Source: Arabidopsis thaliana
Lineage: Eukaryota > Streptophyta > Magnoliopsida > Brassicales > Brassicaceae
Assembly: GCF_000001735.4 (NCBI RefSeq)
Contig: NC_003074.8
Coordinates: forward strand, 2,108,101 to 2,172,100
DNA length: 64,000 nt
Direction of reading: 5' to 3'
Shown: positions 27,019-36,139 of the stretch, one piece after another
Layout of the letters: each line of letters opens with the position of its first letter
Numbering within the stretch: the stretch's first letter is position 1
Made by a program: the position numbers and the translations under genes
The notes under the pieces: model-generated
The model's input: the letters and a program-made list of their open reading frames with translations, nothing else
The model's database searches: none
Told to the model about the DNA's origin: nothing

Positions 27019-28933
27019 CTAGACTGCAGCTCTACCGTAAGCATCAGCATCTCTCTTCAGCTCGGGACACGGTTCAGGAATGACTGACTCCGAGGACCCG
27101 TAAACGTAGGAGCATTGCCAAGAAACAGAAGAACCTGAGCTCATCGACAAAGAAACATTCGACAAAGTCACTGAGCTAAATGGAGATTCTTTGATCCCAA
27201 ACAATTTCCCCGCAATGCCAATGTTCTCTCCAGAAATGTTGCTTAATCTGATGTGACTCACAAGTGGGAGAGCATTCACATCATATTTATCATCAGGGTG
27301 AGATCCAAAGCTACCATTAGCAACAATGGCAGTACCTATTCTCAACATATCGATGTTTGAAATATCGATCTCTTTGATATAACCACCTCTGCCTTTTGTG
27401 GTTCTAAAGGCAATGCCGGTTAACGAGTAGTGTATATGAGCGTTATCAACCACGACATCAGATATTCCACCAGACATTTCACTGCCAAAGGAGATAGAGG
27501 AACCAGAAGCTCCTCGAAGGTACACATTTCTTATATGAACATTTTCAGTGGGACGAGAATAGGCAATTCCATATTCATCCCAACCGCTTTTGAGGGAAAT
27601 CGCGTCATACCCCACGTTAATGGTAGAGTTTTGGATGCAGACGTAATCAGAAGAATCTGAGAAACATAACAAAACATAAGACATTTCGTTCTTCTATGCT
27701 TAGACACAACAAAAAGGGTTTTAGTCTAGAAGAAGTAGAGACAACTAACCTGGTACAATACCGATTGTATAAGGAGATTTAGGAGAAGAATGGGCCAATA
27801 TCTTATGAATATATACATGGCTGCACAAGGACAGTATTAGAGTCAAGACTTTATCATTCAAAAAAACCAAAAAAAGGTTGAGGCCTAGATAGTGTTGAAC
27901 TATCTCTTACCTAGAGTAGATTGAATAGATTGAATAAGCAGGAGCATTCAAGAACGTAAGATTGGAGACAATTACATTTTCAGAAGAAAGAAACTCGATG
28001 AGGTGAGGACGGTTATACTTTAAGGAATGAGAAGTAAACCGATCCCACCAAACCAAGCCTTGACCATCTATAGTTCCATTATCACCTAACCAAGGAAAAG
28101 GATGGAGTAACCATATTATAATTTGAAGGATATTGTAACAAGTGAAAATGAAATAAAAATGTATAAAGCATAGTTTGTTACCTGTTACAACAACATCATG
28201 TAGCTTGTTACCGTTGATCAAACTCTTGTATCGCTTCCCAGGCAAATCAATTCCCCTTCCGTATGAAGGTAAAGGATCAACCACTTCCCAATGCGATGGA
28301 TCCTTTTGAAGTAAAAATTTGGGGTTTTTGGATAAATTTAAAAGTTTGGGATAAATGTGAGAATGAGAAAGAAGCATTGTAATATACCTGAGAAGCGACT
28401 ATAACGGCGCCGTTTTCGAGAAAGAGAGTGAGGTGGCTGGTGAGGCTAAAACTCCCGGTGAGCCAATGTCCCGGCGGAACATAGAGCTGGGCCCCACCTT
28501 TGTCGGCGAAAGACATAAGATAGAAAACGGCGTTTTGAAACGCAAGAGTGTTGAGCGTTTTGCCATCTCCAACAGCTCCAAAATCTGTAATGGAGACACT
28601 GTGTGGTCTTGTACTCAATGATCGCCGGCCAAGTTCGTCGCATATTTTCCCGGCGCCGTGAACGTTTGCGTAAATGGGAATAACACTGGTTAATGCCAGT
28701 ATCAAGATTGTTACCACCTGCTACAACAGAAGAATCTGAGTTAGAATTACAGATCCAGGTTTGTCAAACTGTTTAGAATCCGATCCAACGGAATGATGAA
28801 AAATAGAGAAGTAAATAGTTAAAGAAACGATGAAGAAGAGCAATTCCGAGAAAGGGACAACCTAGAAAGAAGAGGTATGTAATGTAATGGTAGTTAAGAG
28901 AGAAGCAAAAAGAGAGAACGCACTTACTGACAT
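27019..28933 (-). CDS. GH28 polygalacturonase-like secreted protein with altered catalytic motifs, 446 aa
   Basis: Exons (minus): 28928-28933 (two codons, ATG TCA), 28388-28717, 28182-28302, 27911-28085, 27750-27820, 27019-27656. Phases agree; 1341 bases, 446 residues. The N-terminus (MSVVTILILALTSVIPIYA) is a signal peptide. ITDFGAVGDGKTLNT opens the parallel beta-helix as in plant pectinases. NGTIDGQGLVWWD and the KSGWDEYGIAYSRPTENVHI block place it in the plant exo-polygalacturonase-like clade. Two catalytic motifs differ from the family: NTDG is Y228-T-I-G231, and the DD pair is G250-Y-D252. The GHG position is GSE, which is normal for this clade. Activity is therefore doubtful (see findings). 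I recall this as At3g06770, pectin lyase-like superfamily. Expected in the cell wall. Confidence 0.93.
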
Positions 28934-28994
28934 CTTTATTTGTAACGAAGCTGTCGGATAATTAAAGAGATAAAAAAGCTATAAAGTGAAGAAC

Positions 28995-29007
28995 TTTTCG
29001 CGCCAAA
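28995..29007 (-). promoter_or_regulatory. E2F-type site in the polygalacturonase promoter
   Basis: TTTTCGCGCCAAA contains TTTCGCGC, a perfect plant E2F consensus (TTTSSCGC), 62 bp upstream of the start codon. It suggests cell-cycle or endocycle-linked expression; unproven. Confidence 0.5.
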
Positions 29008-29022
29008 TGTAACCAGACACTC

Positions 29023-29040
29023 AGAGAGAGAGAGAGAGAG
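29023..29040. repeat. (AG)n microsatellite, followed by GAA-rich sequence
   Basis: Nine AG units, then AAG/GAA repeats to about 29075, in the 5' region of the polygalacturonase gene. It reads as CT-rich on the coding strand, a common leader composition. Confidence 0.85.
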
Positions 29041-30305
29041 AAGAAGAAGAGAAAGAATAAGAAGGAGAAGGAGAAGAGTTCTTTCTTCGTAACCACACCA
29101 CACAAAACAGTGAAGGTTTTTTTTTTTTATTCTGAGACAAAACAGTATGATTGACAGAAAAAAACGAATTTTTATTTACAGAAACATAAATAAATAATTT
29201 TTAGAAGAAAGAAAAATAAGGAAGGAAGAAGATTGACGCCGAAATGACAGCCTTATATGCGCAAATAAATTGATTTTGTTAATAATGCGAAATAGGAATA
29301 TAAAATAAGATATATAGAGAAAGAAATTGATTGTGGGAAAAGAGAGAAAATAGTAATCATTAATGTATAATCAATACTATACACTATTTAAGCAATTAAT
29401 GTCGAATATGTCTTCATATTGATTAATGGGATCTGGTAACGTATTATCGCCGACAAATCTTCTCGGCTTTGGAGAGAGAAGAGACGACGAGAGGGTGAGG
29501 AAGAAAAAACCAAGAGATAAGTTAATATGGCTGTTTTAAGCTGTGTGCCTTGCCAACAAAATAATAATATGAAAATATTATTGTAGTTTTGTTTAGACAA
29601 GGCATGTGTTTGATATTTTTTTTTGTTTTTATGTTCTGTTTCAATTATATTTTTTGTGCTCAAATTAAGATTTTTATATTAATTTTTCAAAATGTTTACA
29701 TATATGTCTCTGACTGTTTTTCCCTTATCTTTTAGATTTATCACCGTTCAAATATTATTATTCTAAATTAGTCAATAAAATGTACATATTTATCTTATAT
29801 TCTAATGGGAAAATAAGACCCATATGTTTATAAGTAATCTGAAAATTCATATTTACTAATGAGAACATTCTTTTTAAGTCCTGAAAAACTAGATTAGGCA
29901 AATTTTATGATCTGTTCCCTTTTTTTTTTTTTTGAATCTATACTACTATATAGGTTTTTAGGAACCAATAATTACTTATGTAGTTGATTTTTTATAAAGA
30001 AAATCATTGGAAATTATAAAATTTCGGAAGAAAATAAAGCTCAGATACAATGAAATTTAAAAATAATCTGAATAGGAAATAGAACATTCGACTTGAAAAA
30101 TAAAAGATGTAGAAGAAATGGTTAGAATAAGATTGAAGGAAGCAGTAAATGTGAAGAAGACGAGTAGAGCGGAGCATGTGGACTGACAGGGCGGGTATGG
30201 GTCCCACTCCAATCATACGTTAATTTGCCAGCCTGGCATTTCATGTCCTCTAATTTCGTCTAATTAAAATTAAATTAATTCTATAGTATTATTTTCAAAT
30301 AGTAA
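29041..30305. other. Intergenic, very AT-rich
   Basis: No gene or clear repeat family recognised. Poly-T at about 29919-29933. The minus-strand frames at 29388-29663 and 30004-30216 lack family features. Confidence 0.5.
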
Positions 30306-31214
30306 GGTCCAGTTTGTTTTTTCATCCAGATCATCTGGATGAAAAATGATGTTTGTTTTTGACAAATTAACAGATCATTTGGATGAATCATTTGGATGGT
30401 CCATCTGAATGACTTTGTAAATTTAGACTAATTTGTGAAACTCATTTGGATGAACTTGATCGAACCATTTGGATGGAGATGATTTAGTCCAAAAAACCGC
30501 AAAATCATATTTTCCCGCAAAAACCATAAAATCATGTTTTTCCGCCAAAATCACAAAATCATATTTCTCGCCAAAACCGTAAAATCATATTTTCCCACCA
30601 AACCGCAAAATCATATTTTTTCCGCCAAAACCGTAAAATCATATTTTCCCGCCAAAACCGTAAAATCGTATTTTCCCGCCAAAACCGCAAAATCGTATTT
30701 TCCCGCCAAAACCGTAAAATCATATTTTTCCCGCCAAAACCTAAAATTGTATTTTCCCGCCAAAACCGTAAAATCGTATTTTCACGCCAAAATCGTAAAA
30801 TTGTATTTTTCCCGCCAAAACTACAAAATCATGTTTTTCCGCCAAAACCTTATTATCATATTTTTCCACCAAAACCGTAAAATTATATTTTCCGCCAAAA
30901 CCACAAAATCATATTTCTCGCCAAAACTGTAAAATCATATTTTTCCGCCAAAACCGTAAAATCATTTCTTTATTAAAATTATATTTGGTAATGATGTTAA
31001 ATATTTGTCATTTGTTAAAATTATAGAATGGGTATTTTAGTCATTTTTATTAGAATGAGAATGTAGATGAATTACAAAATGATCAAACAAAGAAATATTC
31101 ATTTAAATGCATCATTTAGATAAAATACTAAATAATCAAACAAACATTATTCAAATGCATCATCTAAATAGATCATTTGGATGTAAATGCCAAATAATCA
31201 AACAAACAGGGCTG
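30306..31214. mobile_element. MITE-like non-autonomous DNA transposon (about 0.9 kb) with internal minisatellite
   Basis: The left end GGTCCAGTTTGTTTT (from 30306) and the reverse of the right end AGCCCTGTTTGTTTG (ending 31214) form imperfect terminal inverted repeats. Just inside both ends are repeated ATCCAAATGA/TCATTTGGATGA motifs: about seven on the left (30325-30485) and several degenerate ones on the right (31095-31185). Such subterminal motifs are typical transposase-binding repeats. The middle is a minisatellite (30497-30965). No transposase is encoded. The superfamily is uncertain (PIF/Harbinger- or hAT-like). The possible target duplication is weak: TAA on the left against TGA on the right. 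Confidence 0.7.
30497..30965 (+). repeat. 27-bp minisatellite, about 18 copies, with E2F-type sites
   Basis: Degenerate tandem units of 25-28 bases with the consensus CGCCAAAACCGTAAAATCAT then ATTTTCC. Seven junctions carry a perfect TTTCCCGC (E2F consensus TTTSSCGC), at about 30511, 30645, 30672, 30699, 30727, 30753 and 30808. Because 27 is a multiple of three, a spurious 132-codon repetitive frame runs through the array. Confidence 0.93.
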
Positions 31215-31397
31215 AGTATTGTTCCAACTCTGTATGAAAAATAGTTTTGACAAATAACAATATTCGATCCAATAAGTATTATTCCAAAGAAAACGGGCTG
31301 CGGCCCAATTTGACCACAAAAAGAAACTCGTTAGATCTTTTGAAGAGAAAAATGACAGACAGGAAAGCAGAGCTAAACCCTAGTTTCGTATTGTGAG
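31215..31397. other. Spacer right of the MITE-like element
   Basis: Contains a telo-box-like CTAAACCCTAG at about 31373-31383, just upstream of the small ORF. Confidence 0.4.
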
Positions 31398-31571
31398 ATG
31401 GAAGGTAAACACAAAAATCACGAAGAACTTGATAGACACTACTATATTATTACATCTTCACTTCATCACTGTCTCGTTTTTTTGTTTTTTCAGATTTTGA
31501 GAGCTAAGGGTTGGGACACTGAGAGAATCGGTTATATAAGGGAAAGGATGTGGTCGTTTCTTAAATCCTAA
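31398..31571 (+). CDS. Possible small ORF, 57 codons, uncertain
   Basis: ATG-led frame opening MEGKHKNHEELDRHYY and ending RERMWSFLKS then TAA. I recognise no family. A telo-box-like motif 20 bases upstream is where plant genes often have one, which is the main reason for listing it. Against it: a good GT-AG pair (31405-31493, GTAAAC to TTTTTTCAG) would remove the middle and put a stop six codons in, so the transcript could equally be a spliced non-coding RNA. Confidence 0.25.
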   Translation: MEGKHKNHEELDRHYYIITSSLHHCLVFLFFQILRAKGWDTERIGYIRERMWSFLKS

Positions 31572-32148
31572 TATTTATCTCGAACCTTTTTATCCGGTCA
31601 TTGTCCACTAAGACCAGGACATTGCCCTTTTTTTCTTACTTCTTGTAATGTTTCAATTCATCATCACCCCAACCGGTTGCCATTGTTGAATCTGAGTATA
31701 ATGTTTTTGACCCATCACCACTCTGCCAATCGATCAGTACAAGTTCACTTGAAGCAATAAATCACTGCATCATCCTCCGTCACACAAGAATCTGTCTGTT
31801 TAACTCTTTAGAGGCTCAGGTGTGGATACAATAGCCAAGCATTGATTCCTCTCTTTAAACGACAAGCAACTAGCCGTGAGCACTAAACCAAGATATATAT
31901 AGCAACAACAAAACAAGAACTTAAGACATGTAGTCAATTGTATCATAACTCTGTAATGCAGTTGTGGTTAGTTCATGTTGTTAATCAAAGAAGAAGGAGA
32001 AATTATGATTGTAGGTGATAGATTTCCCAATATGAATAAAATGATAGAATACAATGAAGCTACAAAATTCAATTGATGTTTTCTCACTTATTTAAACTAG
32101 GATGAAAAAGTAAATTAAAAAGGTAATTAAAAACCGAAAGCTAAATCA
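31572..32148. other. Intergenic, DnaJ gene 3' side
   Basis: No supported gene. It should contain the 3' UTR of the minus-strand DnaJ-domain gene. Nothing repeat-like seen. Confidence 0.45.
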
Positions 32149-33337
32149 TCACGATGAGTGAACACAAGTGGATCTGCTTCTCGTGAACATATTCCAATCG
32201 GACGACAAGTTGTAGTCGAACACCCGATTTCTCACATGTGGATAACCCCATAACCTATAATCCGATGGATTAAAAACAGGCGACTCCTTATTAATCCGGT
32301 TTTGCTTTGGTATACCATAAACCGGCGGGGTTTCATTGGTTCGGTTCCCCATGAAGAATGCACTATTGGTTTTTAGACATCTCTCTATCACCATGTTCTC
32401 TTCTCTGAACTTGTCCCTAATGTCCTTGAGGGTTTGACAGAACCGGTTCGGTTTAGAATCATTACGGTTTTCTTTGGATTTGTGTGAGACTCGGCTGCAT
32501 TTTAGACAAATGTTATTTCGTCGGTCTATGTTGAAGCTTCTTCTCTTTGTTTCGTCGGAAAGACATAAATAAGCCTATATGGGGCGCCAAAACCGGTTAA
32601 AGGACCATCCCTACTCCCTAATATTAGTTGTATTGAGAAAATGAATGAATTCATGGATAGCACATGATGATGCTCTAGAATTAAGCGTACGATTCATGTC
32701 CACACACACACACACGTACATTTTATATTGAATTATTGTCTCTCGTGAGAAAATGATAAATATATTCACGTTAAGAATGCTAGGATTTTTTATTTTATTT
32801 TAAATGAGATAAGAAAATAACATAGCTGACCTCGTGGATGAGCTTAAAAGCAATATCTGCTTTTGGGTGATTGTTTTTATCGGGATGAACCTTCAAAGCT
32901 GAACAAAAATAAAGCATGTTATTAGCTCAGATTTATACCATAACAAAAAAATTATAGCTAATCAAAAGTCAAATTTGAATATTTGATAACGTAACATGAA
33001 ATAGAATCAGACCTAATTTGTGATATCGTTTACGTATGACCTTCACCTCTGCATCTTCCTGAATCTGTTATTTTGTTCATAATGTTCTCTTTTTCTTTAT
33101 TTTTCTAACTTGAATAAAACGCAATAAAAAGTTCGTCCAATCTTATTTAGATAAATTGAGAAAAAAGAAAGAAAAGAAAGAACATATACATACACCGAGA
33201 ATGAGATACCAGTCGATGAAACATGAACCGGATGAGATGCGATTGATGTGAATGCAAGAGATTGGTGATCTCGATAGCGCTAAAATATCTGAGACCAATG
33301 CCGCTTTTGGATCCGGTCCGGGTCGGATCTTACCCAT
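32149..33337 (-). CDS. DnaJ-domain protein, 229 aa
   Basis: J-domain co-chaperone-like protein. Exons (minus) 33194-33337, 33013-33064, 32831-32898 and 32149-32574 give 690 bases, 229 residues. The first donor is GGT followed by GTATGT; an earlier GT would break the frame. The J domain spans about residues 43-105: DWYLILGIQEDAEV, IRKRYHKLALKVHPDKNNHP with the catalytic HPD at 70-72, then AFKLIHEAYACLSDETKR. A CLKCS motif and a basic, Asn-rich C-terminal region with no recognised domain follow. The N-terminal 40 residues lack a clear targeting signal. I recall a DnaJ superfamily gene at this place (At3g06778). Simple type III J protein; partner unknown. Confidence 0.9.
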
Positions 33338-35300
33338 CGCAACAAAAGTTTCCAGGACAATGGAGGTGAAGGCAAAACAAAATATGGAAGGAGTGAGTAG
33401 AACAGAAAGAGAGAGAAGACGTTGAGAGAAGGCAGGCAGACTTTGCGGGATAGACCCATTTTAAATTGGAAGAGAAAGAGAGAGAAACTTAAATTAAATC
33501 CATTTATGATTATTAAATCCAATATTCTTCAAATAAAAAAATCAACACGAAGAACGAGTAAAACTAATGAGTTAAAGAAAATAATTACGGTAGATTTAGC
33601 CGTTTATCCACGTTGTGTAACTCGCTTTTACTGCAAATATTCAAATAAAGTTTTATAAAAATCTCAATATTCAATAGAATTGAGTAATTAAGATATAAAA
33701 TAAATAAAATTGCTACTTTAGTTGTTGTAATTTGTAAACTGAACAAAACGGCTGTATTATTTTTTCTACCGACATAAATGTCGATTCTTTGTTTTCTTTG
33801 ACGTTGTTAAGCGAAATAAATATAACGGTAATTACATATGCAAACATAAATTACTTTGAGAAGGTTGCATGTCGTGGATAGTAGATTGTCATATATGATG
33901 AGTGGTTAGGTGAAGTTTTCTAATACTATATGATAAAGATTTTTTAAAAAAATAAAGTACTTGATAAATCATCTACGATGTTAGATAGCTGTTAAATGTA
34001 GAGAATTTAATAGTGAAACACGGAACTTGTGATACATATATAGAAGAGAAGTAAACAAACACTTTATGCCTTTATTTGAAATCAAATGACAAATGTGAAA
34101 CAATCAAAGTAGATGAAGCGACTACCAACTATTCTTCTCTTTTTACAGTTTACATGGAACAGTTTTATTTTTCCTTAGATAATTTTTTACATGAAAGTTG
34201 AAATATTGAAGCAGAGAGAATTTTATATTGTTTTTTTAGCACAATATTTTGCATAGATTGAATCCAAAACCTCGGAAGTCTAATTGTATAGGAGTATGTA
34301 TTTGTCTAGAGACAAAATATGTAACAACATTATAAATATATCTAGCTTTGCTTTGAAAATTGGATTCCGATCGGATTCCGTGATTTGTTTTCTGGTGTTT
34401 GATGTTTGACTATAACTTGAGACAACAAAAACAGTAGTTTGGCTTTGGACATAAGCTAAGTATGTATGTACCAAATGTATTACATGCGCGTTGATCTATA
34501 AGGAAAAACTCAAAAACACTTTAGTACTTTAAATTATGTCATGGAAATTAATATTTGAACTACAAAGTTTTACTTGTAATTGACTTCTTGTAACGAAGCC
34601 AAGCAAATTTCAGTAATATATTCGAAACCTAATTCATTCATTACTGCTCAAAATCAGTATTAAGTCAAACATAGCGGTTGTAATTGGTCACCCGAAAGTA
34701 ATAATCACATGGGAATGCTAACGTCTAGATTATCAATAAAAAATGTCAATTACTTCCTGAACTTTTATTTCTGAAACATATTTAACGAATGTATGAAAAA
34801 ACAAAGTTTGGAAGCTCTTAAAGTCTGAAAAAACAAATGTCAGTGAGCACGTGAGATTTGTCATAAAAATTGTCGATGATGAATCTGCAGAAGGATTAGG
34901 TTATGGACCGACGATAAATGTTTAGCCATTTATGCTATAAATTTTACTTCATTTTTTTTTTGGTGTGAATTTCAGAGAAGGCATACCAAACAACCTCGTA
35001 AGAACATTTAAACATATGAAATGCCATCGATTTCTTTCTAAGAAATCACATATAATTTAAATCGACGTTGTTATAATCTCTCGATTTACTCCATGTAGAA
35101 AAATTTCCTTGAGAAATGATCACATGAACAAGCACATCTTCTGCTCCCACAATATTGCTTTTTTGACACATATTTCCTTATATTTATGAATAGAACCCGT
35201 ATATTTTCAGAAATGTGATACGAAAACTCTTCAATGAATTATATAGCCCAACCCATAACTTTGGGCTTTCACGTATTAATGGACCCTTCTTGCGTGCGAC
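33338..35300. other. 2-kb upstream region shared by divergent genes
   Basis: AT-rich, with the DnaJ 5' region on the left (purine-rich sequence at 33405-33490) and the glycine-rich gene promoter on the right. No coding sequence, tRNA or transposon end recognised. Confidence 0.5.
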
Positions 35301-35329
35301 TCACGTGTGAATACTGCAAGACACGTGGC
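35301..35329 (+). promoter_or_regulatory. Paired G-boxes upstream of the glycine-rich gene
   Basis: TCACGTGTGA at 35301-35310 and ACACGTGGC at 35321-35329, 20 bases apart and about 210-230 bp upstream of the ATG. Close G-box/ABRE pairs are typical of light- or ABA-responsive promoters. Confidence 0.5.
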
Positions 35330-35533
35330 TTCTCTATTCAACGCGCAAATCAGTTACGTGTACAATTTATCCGCCTCCTTCGGATCCGAATCAGCTTCCT
35401 GATTTATTTCCCGTCATTACCCAAATTCGCCGGCAATGTTGTAAAAATCCCTAATCCAAAACTATTTCGTGGATTTTAGGGAAAAAAGAGAATTCGAACA
35501 AGGTCGTCGTCGTCGTCGGATTTGTAGATCATC

Positions 35534-36139
35534 ATGGAGTTCTCTTTGATCGCAGATACAGTCACAGTTTGCACGGCTAAGCAAGGTATCGCGTTTGGGA
35601 AATCTCTTCTTCAAAGGTTGGATTTGGCCAATCACATTTCTTTCGCCGATTCCGTTGTTGATCATCAATCTCCCGGTGGAGGAATCGTTCAAGCATCGGC
35701 GATTATTTTCCCCGTCGATGCAATTGCTCCTCCACCGGTCAGATCTAGCTCTTATAAGACAATTCGCCGGATCCGTAAAAAGCGACGAACCAGGCGAGTT
35801 TCGTTTGGTGGAGATGGAGATGACGCAGGAGATTTTGGTCGTTTTCTGTTAGAAGGTGATTTCGGTGGTAGCGACGGTCCATTTGGATTTGGAGGCGGAG
35901 GAAACGATGGAGGCGGAAAGGGATGGAACTACGGCGGCGGCGGCGGTGGTTTCGGGAGGGATAATTGGGATGGGTCTTCGTTTTCGTCTTGGTCAGATCC
36001 AGCGATGGAATTTGTGTATGAAGTGATTTGCTGGATCGCGTTGTCTAATTGTGTGCACTTTGCGTTCAAGAGGATAGTGAGGATCGTGACCGACGGTGAA
36101 AGGGAGAAGTTGAACATTGCATTATCTCCGGTATGCTGA
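35534..36139 (+). CDS. Glycine-rich protein with C-terminal hydrophobic helix, 201 aa
   Basis: Single exon opening MEFSLIADTVTVCTAKQG. I do not recognise a characterised family. A basic cluster lies near residues 75-90 (KTIRRIRKKRRTRRVSFGG). Residues about 90-155 are Gly-rich with Phe/Asp (FGFGGGGNDGGGKGW, YGGGGGGFGRDNW). A hydrophobic segment near 165-185 (EFVYEVICWIALSNCVHFAF) could span or contact a membrane. The hydroxylated N-terminus and late basic patch could suit plastid targeting, but this is a guess. Close G-box pairing upstream suggests light or ABA control. Recalled as 'glycine-rich protein' At3g06780. Confidence 0.85.
   Translation: MEFSLIADTVTVCTAKQGIAFGKSLLQRLDLANHISFADSVVDHQSPGGGIVQASAIIFPVDAIAPPPVRSSSYKTIRRIRKKRRTRRVSFGGDGDDAGDFGRFLLEGDFGGSDGPFGFGGGGNDGGGKGWNYGGGGGGFGRDNWDGSSFSSWSDPAMEFVYEVICWIALSNCVHFAFKRIVRIVTDGEREKLNIALSPVC

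Follow-up and report, generated by a model that had tools for sequence, protein, structure and literature searches.

The locus at 30306-31213 of the window (the whole 64,000-nucleotide stretch of Arabidopsis thaliana DNA analysed here, G000:C3:2108101-2172100) is a 908-bp non-coding transposon copy of MITE type, and its sequence places it in a dispersed PIF/Harbinger-type MITE family whose members recurrently carry a tandem array of E2F-type sites. We consider it probable that the element is a decayed MITE with a prebuilt E2F minisatellite, one that in its unmethylated state would likely serve at most as a docking cluster for E2F-DP/RBR in dividing cells. The phenomenon itself is known; the details are new.

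Ends, copies and a transposase-bearing relative

Like other MITEs, the element is short, non-coding and multi-copy. It opens with the terminal inverted repeat (TIR) GGTCCAGTTTGTTT (30306-30319, forward strand; two mismatches to the family's GGCCCTGTTTGTTT) and closes with AAACAAACAGGGCT (31200-31213, forward strand; one mismatch to the family's AAACAAACAGGGCC), both of PIF/Harbinger type. Between them lie a left subterminal arm with ATCATTTGGATG repeats (30320-30492, forward strand), the tandem array, and a right subterminal arm (30966-31199, forward strand). Subterminal repeats of the CATTTGGATG type occur in both arms, and inverted-pair detection found a hairpin with perfect 14-bp arms at 30318-30346 in the left arm. 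The original prediction of a MITE-like element of about 0.9 kb with terminal and subterminal repeats is thereby borne out, except that its end coordinate, 31214, lies one base beyond the element. As left target-site duplication, TAA stands at 30303-30305; the right side reads GAG, a mismatch in this copy.

Searches of the genome (119.66 Mb, 7 contigs), with 40 candidates scored in each, returned at least 62 matches for the whole element (213 candidates), at least 41 for the left arm, namely 40 loci and one self-hairpin match (47 candidates), and at least 40 for the right arm (45 candidates). The 27-bp unit pattern, with up to three mismatches, matched 1019 times, against 0 for the reversed control. 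The genome thus contains the copies, alike in ends and unit, on whose existence the original prediction had staked itself. Fifty-three places were taken together with flanking sequence: all 40 loci of the left arm (L031-L070), and 13 others (L071-L083) that match the right arm but lack a complete left one. Both TIRs were found within four mismatches in 37 of the 49 loci having any left-arm BLAST match, although several of the four-mismatch right ends (for example L034, L040 and L044) are the best of a scan and may be due to chance. The distance between the ends, GGCCCTGTTTGTTT and AAACAAACAGGGCC in the family, is 805-2019 bp in these 37 elements. Their 3-bp target duplications are identical in 16 copies, 13 of which have TAA or TTA, and non-identical in 21. 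When left and right sides were re-paired at random, identical duplications averaged 6.2 and numbered 14 at most, and none of 5000 trials reached 16. A TWA duplication is therefore a property of the family, whereas the window copy alone, with TAA and GAG, lacks it.

The transposase domain DDE_Tnp_4 has 63 matches in the genome, three of which adjoin right-arm matches (C5:12542646, C1:22695027 and C4:11837276). On C5, a 3.84-kb relative (12540559-12544395) has both ends in common with the MITE family, with TTA before GGTCCTGTTTGTTT at 12540559 and TTA after AAACAAACAGGGCC at 12544395. It contains DDE_Tnp_4 (108 bits, C5:12542646-12543134), and its right arm matches that of the window element at 74% over 211 bases. 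For the relative on C1 (22695027), no left end was found within the stretch scanned. The ends, the 3-bp duplications and this transposase-bearing relative with the same ends together assign the family to the PIF/Harbinger type.

TTTSSCGC is absent from the stretches covering the C5 and C1 relatives (L111, L076, L112 and L081), and TTTCCCGC, the octamer on which the array is built, is absent from nine right-arm loci (L073 and L075-L082). Among the right-arm-only loci that do contain it, L072 has one and L074 has three; tandem arrays are present in L071, L072, L074 and L083. The presence of the array among distant family members is mixed, and from these sequences it looks like a feature of the family's non-autonomous members. 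Because the ends of the short elements match those of an array-less, transposase-bearing relative, we infer that the array was probably acquired by the non-autonomous lineage, whose transposition then multiplied it.

The array, its sites and their decay

In the window copy the array occupies 30493-30965 on the forward strand and, according to TRF, has a period of 27, 17.6 copies and 83% matches, with the unit TTTTCCCGCCAAAACCGTAAAATCATA (rotated); about 18 copies had been predicted. The seven perfect E2F-type octamers that had been expected are exact occurrences of TTTCCCGC, all on the forward strand. The leftmost lies at 30511-30518, and the other six, at 30645-30652, 30672-30679, 30699-30706, 30727-30734, 30753-30760 and 30808-30815, each stand inside a full TTTTCCCGCCAAAA. 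Accordingly, 7 of the 16 full units contain the octamer and 6 the 14-bp core, and the remaining 9 depart from the octamer mainly by C-to-T or G-to-A changes. Across the window, TTTSSCGC occurs 15 times on both strands, compared with a mean of 3.19 and a largest value of 9 in 100 shuffles. In 200000 mononucleotide shuffles of the unit, TTTTCCCGCCAAAA arose in none (either strand) and TTTCCCGC in 44. A 132-aa open frame spans the array (30534-30932) and could be mis-annotated as a gene; since the period of 27 is a multiple of three, the frame is a by-product.

The core of the repeat is the reverse complement of the sites preferred by human E2F8, namely TTTTTGGCGGGAAAA, the DNA used in solving its structure, and by human E2F2-DP1, for which SELEX gave (T)TTGGCGGGAA(A) with the seed WWWTGGCGGGAAA (PMC4686757). 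In this sense the proposed match to the E2F consensus holds, on specificities taken from human proteins that plant E2Fs are assumed to share. The window family's unit matches 14 of the 15 bases of the E2F8 site. For plants, the E2F element is cited as TYTCCCGCC (PMC5464667).

Genome-wide, TTTCCCGC occurs 3714 times (1954 + 1760), compared with 699 for the reversed pattern, which, as it alters the order of neighbouring bases, is a rough control. All TTTSSCGC octamers together number 7094 against 4445 reversed, and the three other than TTTCCCGC number 3380 against 3746, no excess; a general excess of E2F-type octamers was therefore rejected in favour of one confined to TTTCCCGC. Tandem pairs of TTTCCCGC with 12-28 bases between them were found 676 times (control, 2), tandem pairs of TTTSGCGC 15 times (control, 4), and the 14-mer TTTTCCCGCCAAAA 1184 times (reversal, 0). 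About 7% of all genomic TTTCCCGC, 274 copies, fall in the 40 PIF-type loci, which together with their flanks amount to 87,441 bp.

Wraparound alignment recovered the array in all 40 left-arm loci (L031-L070), with 727 full units and 4 to 51 units per locus, a span within which the 16 units of the window copy fall. As every one of these loci carries the array, the original idea of a minisatellite amplified locally, inside one element, does not stand, and an expansion peculiar to this copy was rejected. These counts leave aside L071-L083 and the array-less L089; the three unit tables also leave aside L086-L088, L090, L102, L103, L107 and L108. Of the 727 units, 263 (0.36) contain the octamer and 195 the 14-mer. 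That 64% of units lack the octamer speaks against a strong E2F sink. Its intactness falls inside the span of the unit's other octamers (0.23-0.51), which rules it out as proof of selection; nothing here accordingly indicates strong purifying selection on the E2F site.

Departures at C/G columns of the core in PIF-type units are mostly transitions. In these units, CpG transitions affect 9.0% in the E2F core versus 14.5% in the spacer (95% interval of the difference from a cluster bootstrap over loci, -8.5 to -2.7 points), the core value being lower in 25 loci, higher in 7 and equal in 8. In a second set of arrays, hAT-A (14 loci, 234 units; see below), the figures are 7.5 versus 11.2% (interval, -5.9 to -1.3 points), and in a third, hAT-B (4 loci, 86 units), 9.3 versus 9.0% (interval, -6.0 to +6.5), no difference. 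The fractions of C/G columns kept in core and spacer are 0.804 and 0.794, about equal, for PIF-type, 0.892 and 0.822 for hAT-A, and 0.843 and 0.737 for hAT-B units; for A/T columns they are 0.959 and 0.829 (the PIF-type spacer having two columns split between two letters), 0.982 and 0.967, and 0.964 and 0.884. The CpG difference amounts at most to a mild retention of the core, one that could result from binding, from shielding against methylation or simply from sequence context.

Similar arrays in hAT-type elements

Pairs of the core with A, G or T as the next base number 348; 20 places, all on C1, were taken among those listed, and seven more (L084-L090, of which L089 is without an array) came from earlier pattern lists. 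A search for ends, run without a chance control, yielded three sets with ends other than PIF type. In members of hAT-A the ends are of the TAGGGGTGTCAAAA type and the duplications 8 bp long (of 14 loci, 7 have an exact duplication and 2 one with a single mismatch, while none was found in 5), in contrast to the TWA-type 3-bp duplications of the window family. Their 28-bp unit, TTTTCCCGCCAAAAACGTAAACCCGTGA, matches all 15 bases of the E2F8 site (PMC4686757). The weaker set hAT-B has TAGAGATGTTAATG-type ends, an 8-bp duplication that is exact in one of four loci and has one mismatch in another, and the unit TTTTCCCGCCAAAAACGCAATTCAACA. In hAT-D, the ends are TATAGCTGTCAAAT and TATAACTGTCAAAT, with exact 8-bp duplications at both loci (at L087 with the second-ranked pair); the units of 26-27 bp have a degenerate core, TTTTCTCGCCAAAA or TTTTTCCGCCAAAA, and each locus retains one or two exact TTTCCCGC. 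The short array of L086 has a further spacer type and was assigned to none of these sets.

Because the hAT arrays were located by searching for the core, their sharing it is no test of convergence, and its recurrence was rejected as proof. The spacers are more informative. Compared with shuffled sequences, the PIF-type spacer resembles that of hAT-D at 9 of 13 positions (p 0.0002; 8 positions, p 0.0008, with the 26-bp unit, the other of two TRF units) and that of hAT-A at 8 of 13 (p 0.016), and is no closer than shuffled to those of hAT-B (p 0.28) and L086 (p 0.92). At least the PIF-type and hAT-D arrays therefore appear to be connected across superfamilies, whether through common descent or through exchange; the other arrays may be independent.

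SIMPLEGUY1, an A. thaliana repeat family of Harbinger type with a simple-repeat body, is probably the window family, itself non-autonomous, of PIF/Harbinger type and with a repeat array for a body. A place near the SIMPLEGUY1 of PMC6297998 (chr2, ~2.232 Mb) matches the hAT-D locus L088 in two stretches (80 and 94%) and has a similar array, and naming the window family by way of that place was rejected, the element there (L113, C2:2231600-2233400) being of hAT-D type. As the arrays are alike, names in repeat libraries may confuse SIMPLEGUY1-type with hAT-D elements. Our guess is that the hAT-type A. thaliana repeat families SIMPLEHAT1/2 correspond to hAT-A or hAT-B loci; like the window element, the hAT-type loci described here contain arrays, with units of 26-28 bp, whose E2F core is identical or degenerate.

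An E2F-like array of a further type is seen at C1:6237541-6237616, C3:14736729-14736773 and C5:10205812-10205888, where TTTGGCGCCAAAA palindromes have TTTCCCGC or GCGGGAAA between them at a spacing of ~32 bp. L086 (C1:4110300-4114000) and L090 (C1:3825200-3828300) combine TTTCCCGC with long tandem tracts of TTTTAAAA or TTTACAAG, and have octamers on both strands.

That transposon-borne E2F sites have spread in Brassicaceae is known, and what is at issue is the reason. The architecture described here makes the question testable: core arrays of 26-28 bp in elements with differing ends, absent from one transposase-bearing relative, with spacers that are partly shared. On one rather unlikely reading, several unrelated families, PIF/Harbinger and hAT, share or have converged on a single cis device. 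This device, an array of units of 26-28 bp with optimal E2F sites, missing from the transposase-bearing PIF/Harbinger relative, would in S phase make the elements accessible to transposase or set the timing of their movement. If so, E2F would be a cell-cycle licence for selfish DNA. As to origin, a minisatellite may have passed between superfamilies, selection may repeatedly have favoured E2F arrays in elements that are non-autonomous, or slippage with hitch-hiking may account for everything.

Possible roles of the array and the polygalacturonase gene

In Brassicaceae, E2F motifs have been multiplied by transposons (Henaff et al. 2014, Plant J 77:852, as cited in PMC12595863, PMC13317346, PMC8725346, PMC12477314 and PMC5464667), in line with the original prediction, which mentioned transposons carrying such sites. 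According to the first four of these, ~85% of E2F motifs in some Brassica species lie in transposable elements (TEs), the carriers being hAT, PIF/Harbinger and MULE MITEs and Helitrons, and TE-borne motifs can bind E2Fa, while those distant from genes may dilute E2F; the A. thaliana copies are situated near genes (PMC12595863). As cited in these later papers, the 2014 study carries no mention of ~27-bp tandem arrays, of their absence from a transposase-bearing relative or of a likeness of units across superfamilies, any of which the original may contain. Our literature search likewise found no report of ~27-bp E2F arrays or of the 14-mer, again with the proviso that Henaff et al. 2014 may hold them. 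The window element resembles the E2F-like site upstream of AtDRTS3 in being transposon-located and upstream of an A. thaliana gene; the AtDRTS3 site was shown to function as a repressor, its mutation raising promoter activity in transgenic plants, and is a single site, CGTCCCGCC, as opposed to an array (PMC5464667).

In the explanation that we favour, the minisatellite of E2F consensus sites was likely already inside the element upon arrival, and each intact unit would offer one full-length site, TTTTCCCGCCAAAA. E2F-DP/RBR would dock there, if at all, on an unmethylated copy in a dividing cell; binding, a role for methylation and any effect on transcription are what we infer from the sites. 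A possible, though less probable, reading, which partly overlaps with this one, is that the minisatellite is passive: it would have spread by slippage and hitch-hiked on transposition, its match to E2F being incidental and its copies methylated, decayed and unbound in the plant. The loss of the octamer from most units and its unexceptional intactness fit such passivity, as do the Pol IV-dependent 24-nt siRNAs from SIMPLEHAT2 (PMC6753494), if our guess relating it to the hAT sets is right, and the listing of SIMPLEGUY1 in a table of a study of how DNA methylation varies (PMC4413256). Against this reading, the 14-bp core is identical to the site that human E2Fs bind optimally in vitro (PMC4686757) and appears in none of the 200000 unit shuffles. 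The lower CpG transitions of the core in two of three families and the reviewed capacity of TE-borne motifs to bind E2Fa (PMC12595863) also tell against passivity, as does the recurrence of the core in hAT-type arrays, an observation biased by the core search that found them. It is quite unlikely that the array mainly docks another protein, transposon-encoded or of the host, whose recognition motif extends past the E2F core. Outside the core, GTAAA is indeed common to the PIF-type, hAT-A and hAT-D units, and the spacer likenesses to hAT-D and hAT-A point the same way, but the transposase-bearing relative lacks the octamer, and the spacers of hAT-B and L086 are no closer than shuffled ones. Our probabilities for the several readings overlap and are not intended to sum to one.

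The original prediction saw in the array a locally amplified, strong E2F sink or enhancer for a polygalacturonase gene (glycosyl hydrolase 28/pectate-lyase-like by Pfam). The distance of about 1.4 kb that it gave is sound: the predicted ATG at 28933, which belongs to a short first exon whose splice signals were read by eye in the sequence rather than from a transcript, lies 1373 bp from the element, and seven exact sites within ~300 bp at that distance are what commends the idea. We nevertheless regard it as most improbable. The array is family-wide and not local, and the window copy supplies only 7 of the 3714 genomic TTTCCCGC, so as a sink it cannot matter much by itself; silencing of the SIMPLEHAT2 kind, a family that we only guess to be one of the hAT sets, would weaken the sink idea. 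Moreover, a separate E2F-type palindrome, TTTTCGCGCCAAA, stands at 28995-29007, between gene and element and ~60 bp upstream of the predicted ATG, so that any E2F control of the polygalacturonase gene need not involve the element.

Pfam places zf-Di19 (25.0 kb, forward strand), the polygalacturonase (27.0-28.9 kb, reverse strand) and MORF (37.6 kb, reverse strand) in the neighbourhood. Rfam gave no match over 28000-36000 of the window, and Pfam nothing above cut-off for the frame at 32152-32574. To the right of the element, at 31371-31570, a telo-box-like AAACCCTA is followed by a 64-aa frame, possibly a small transcription unit.
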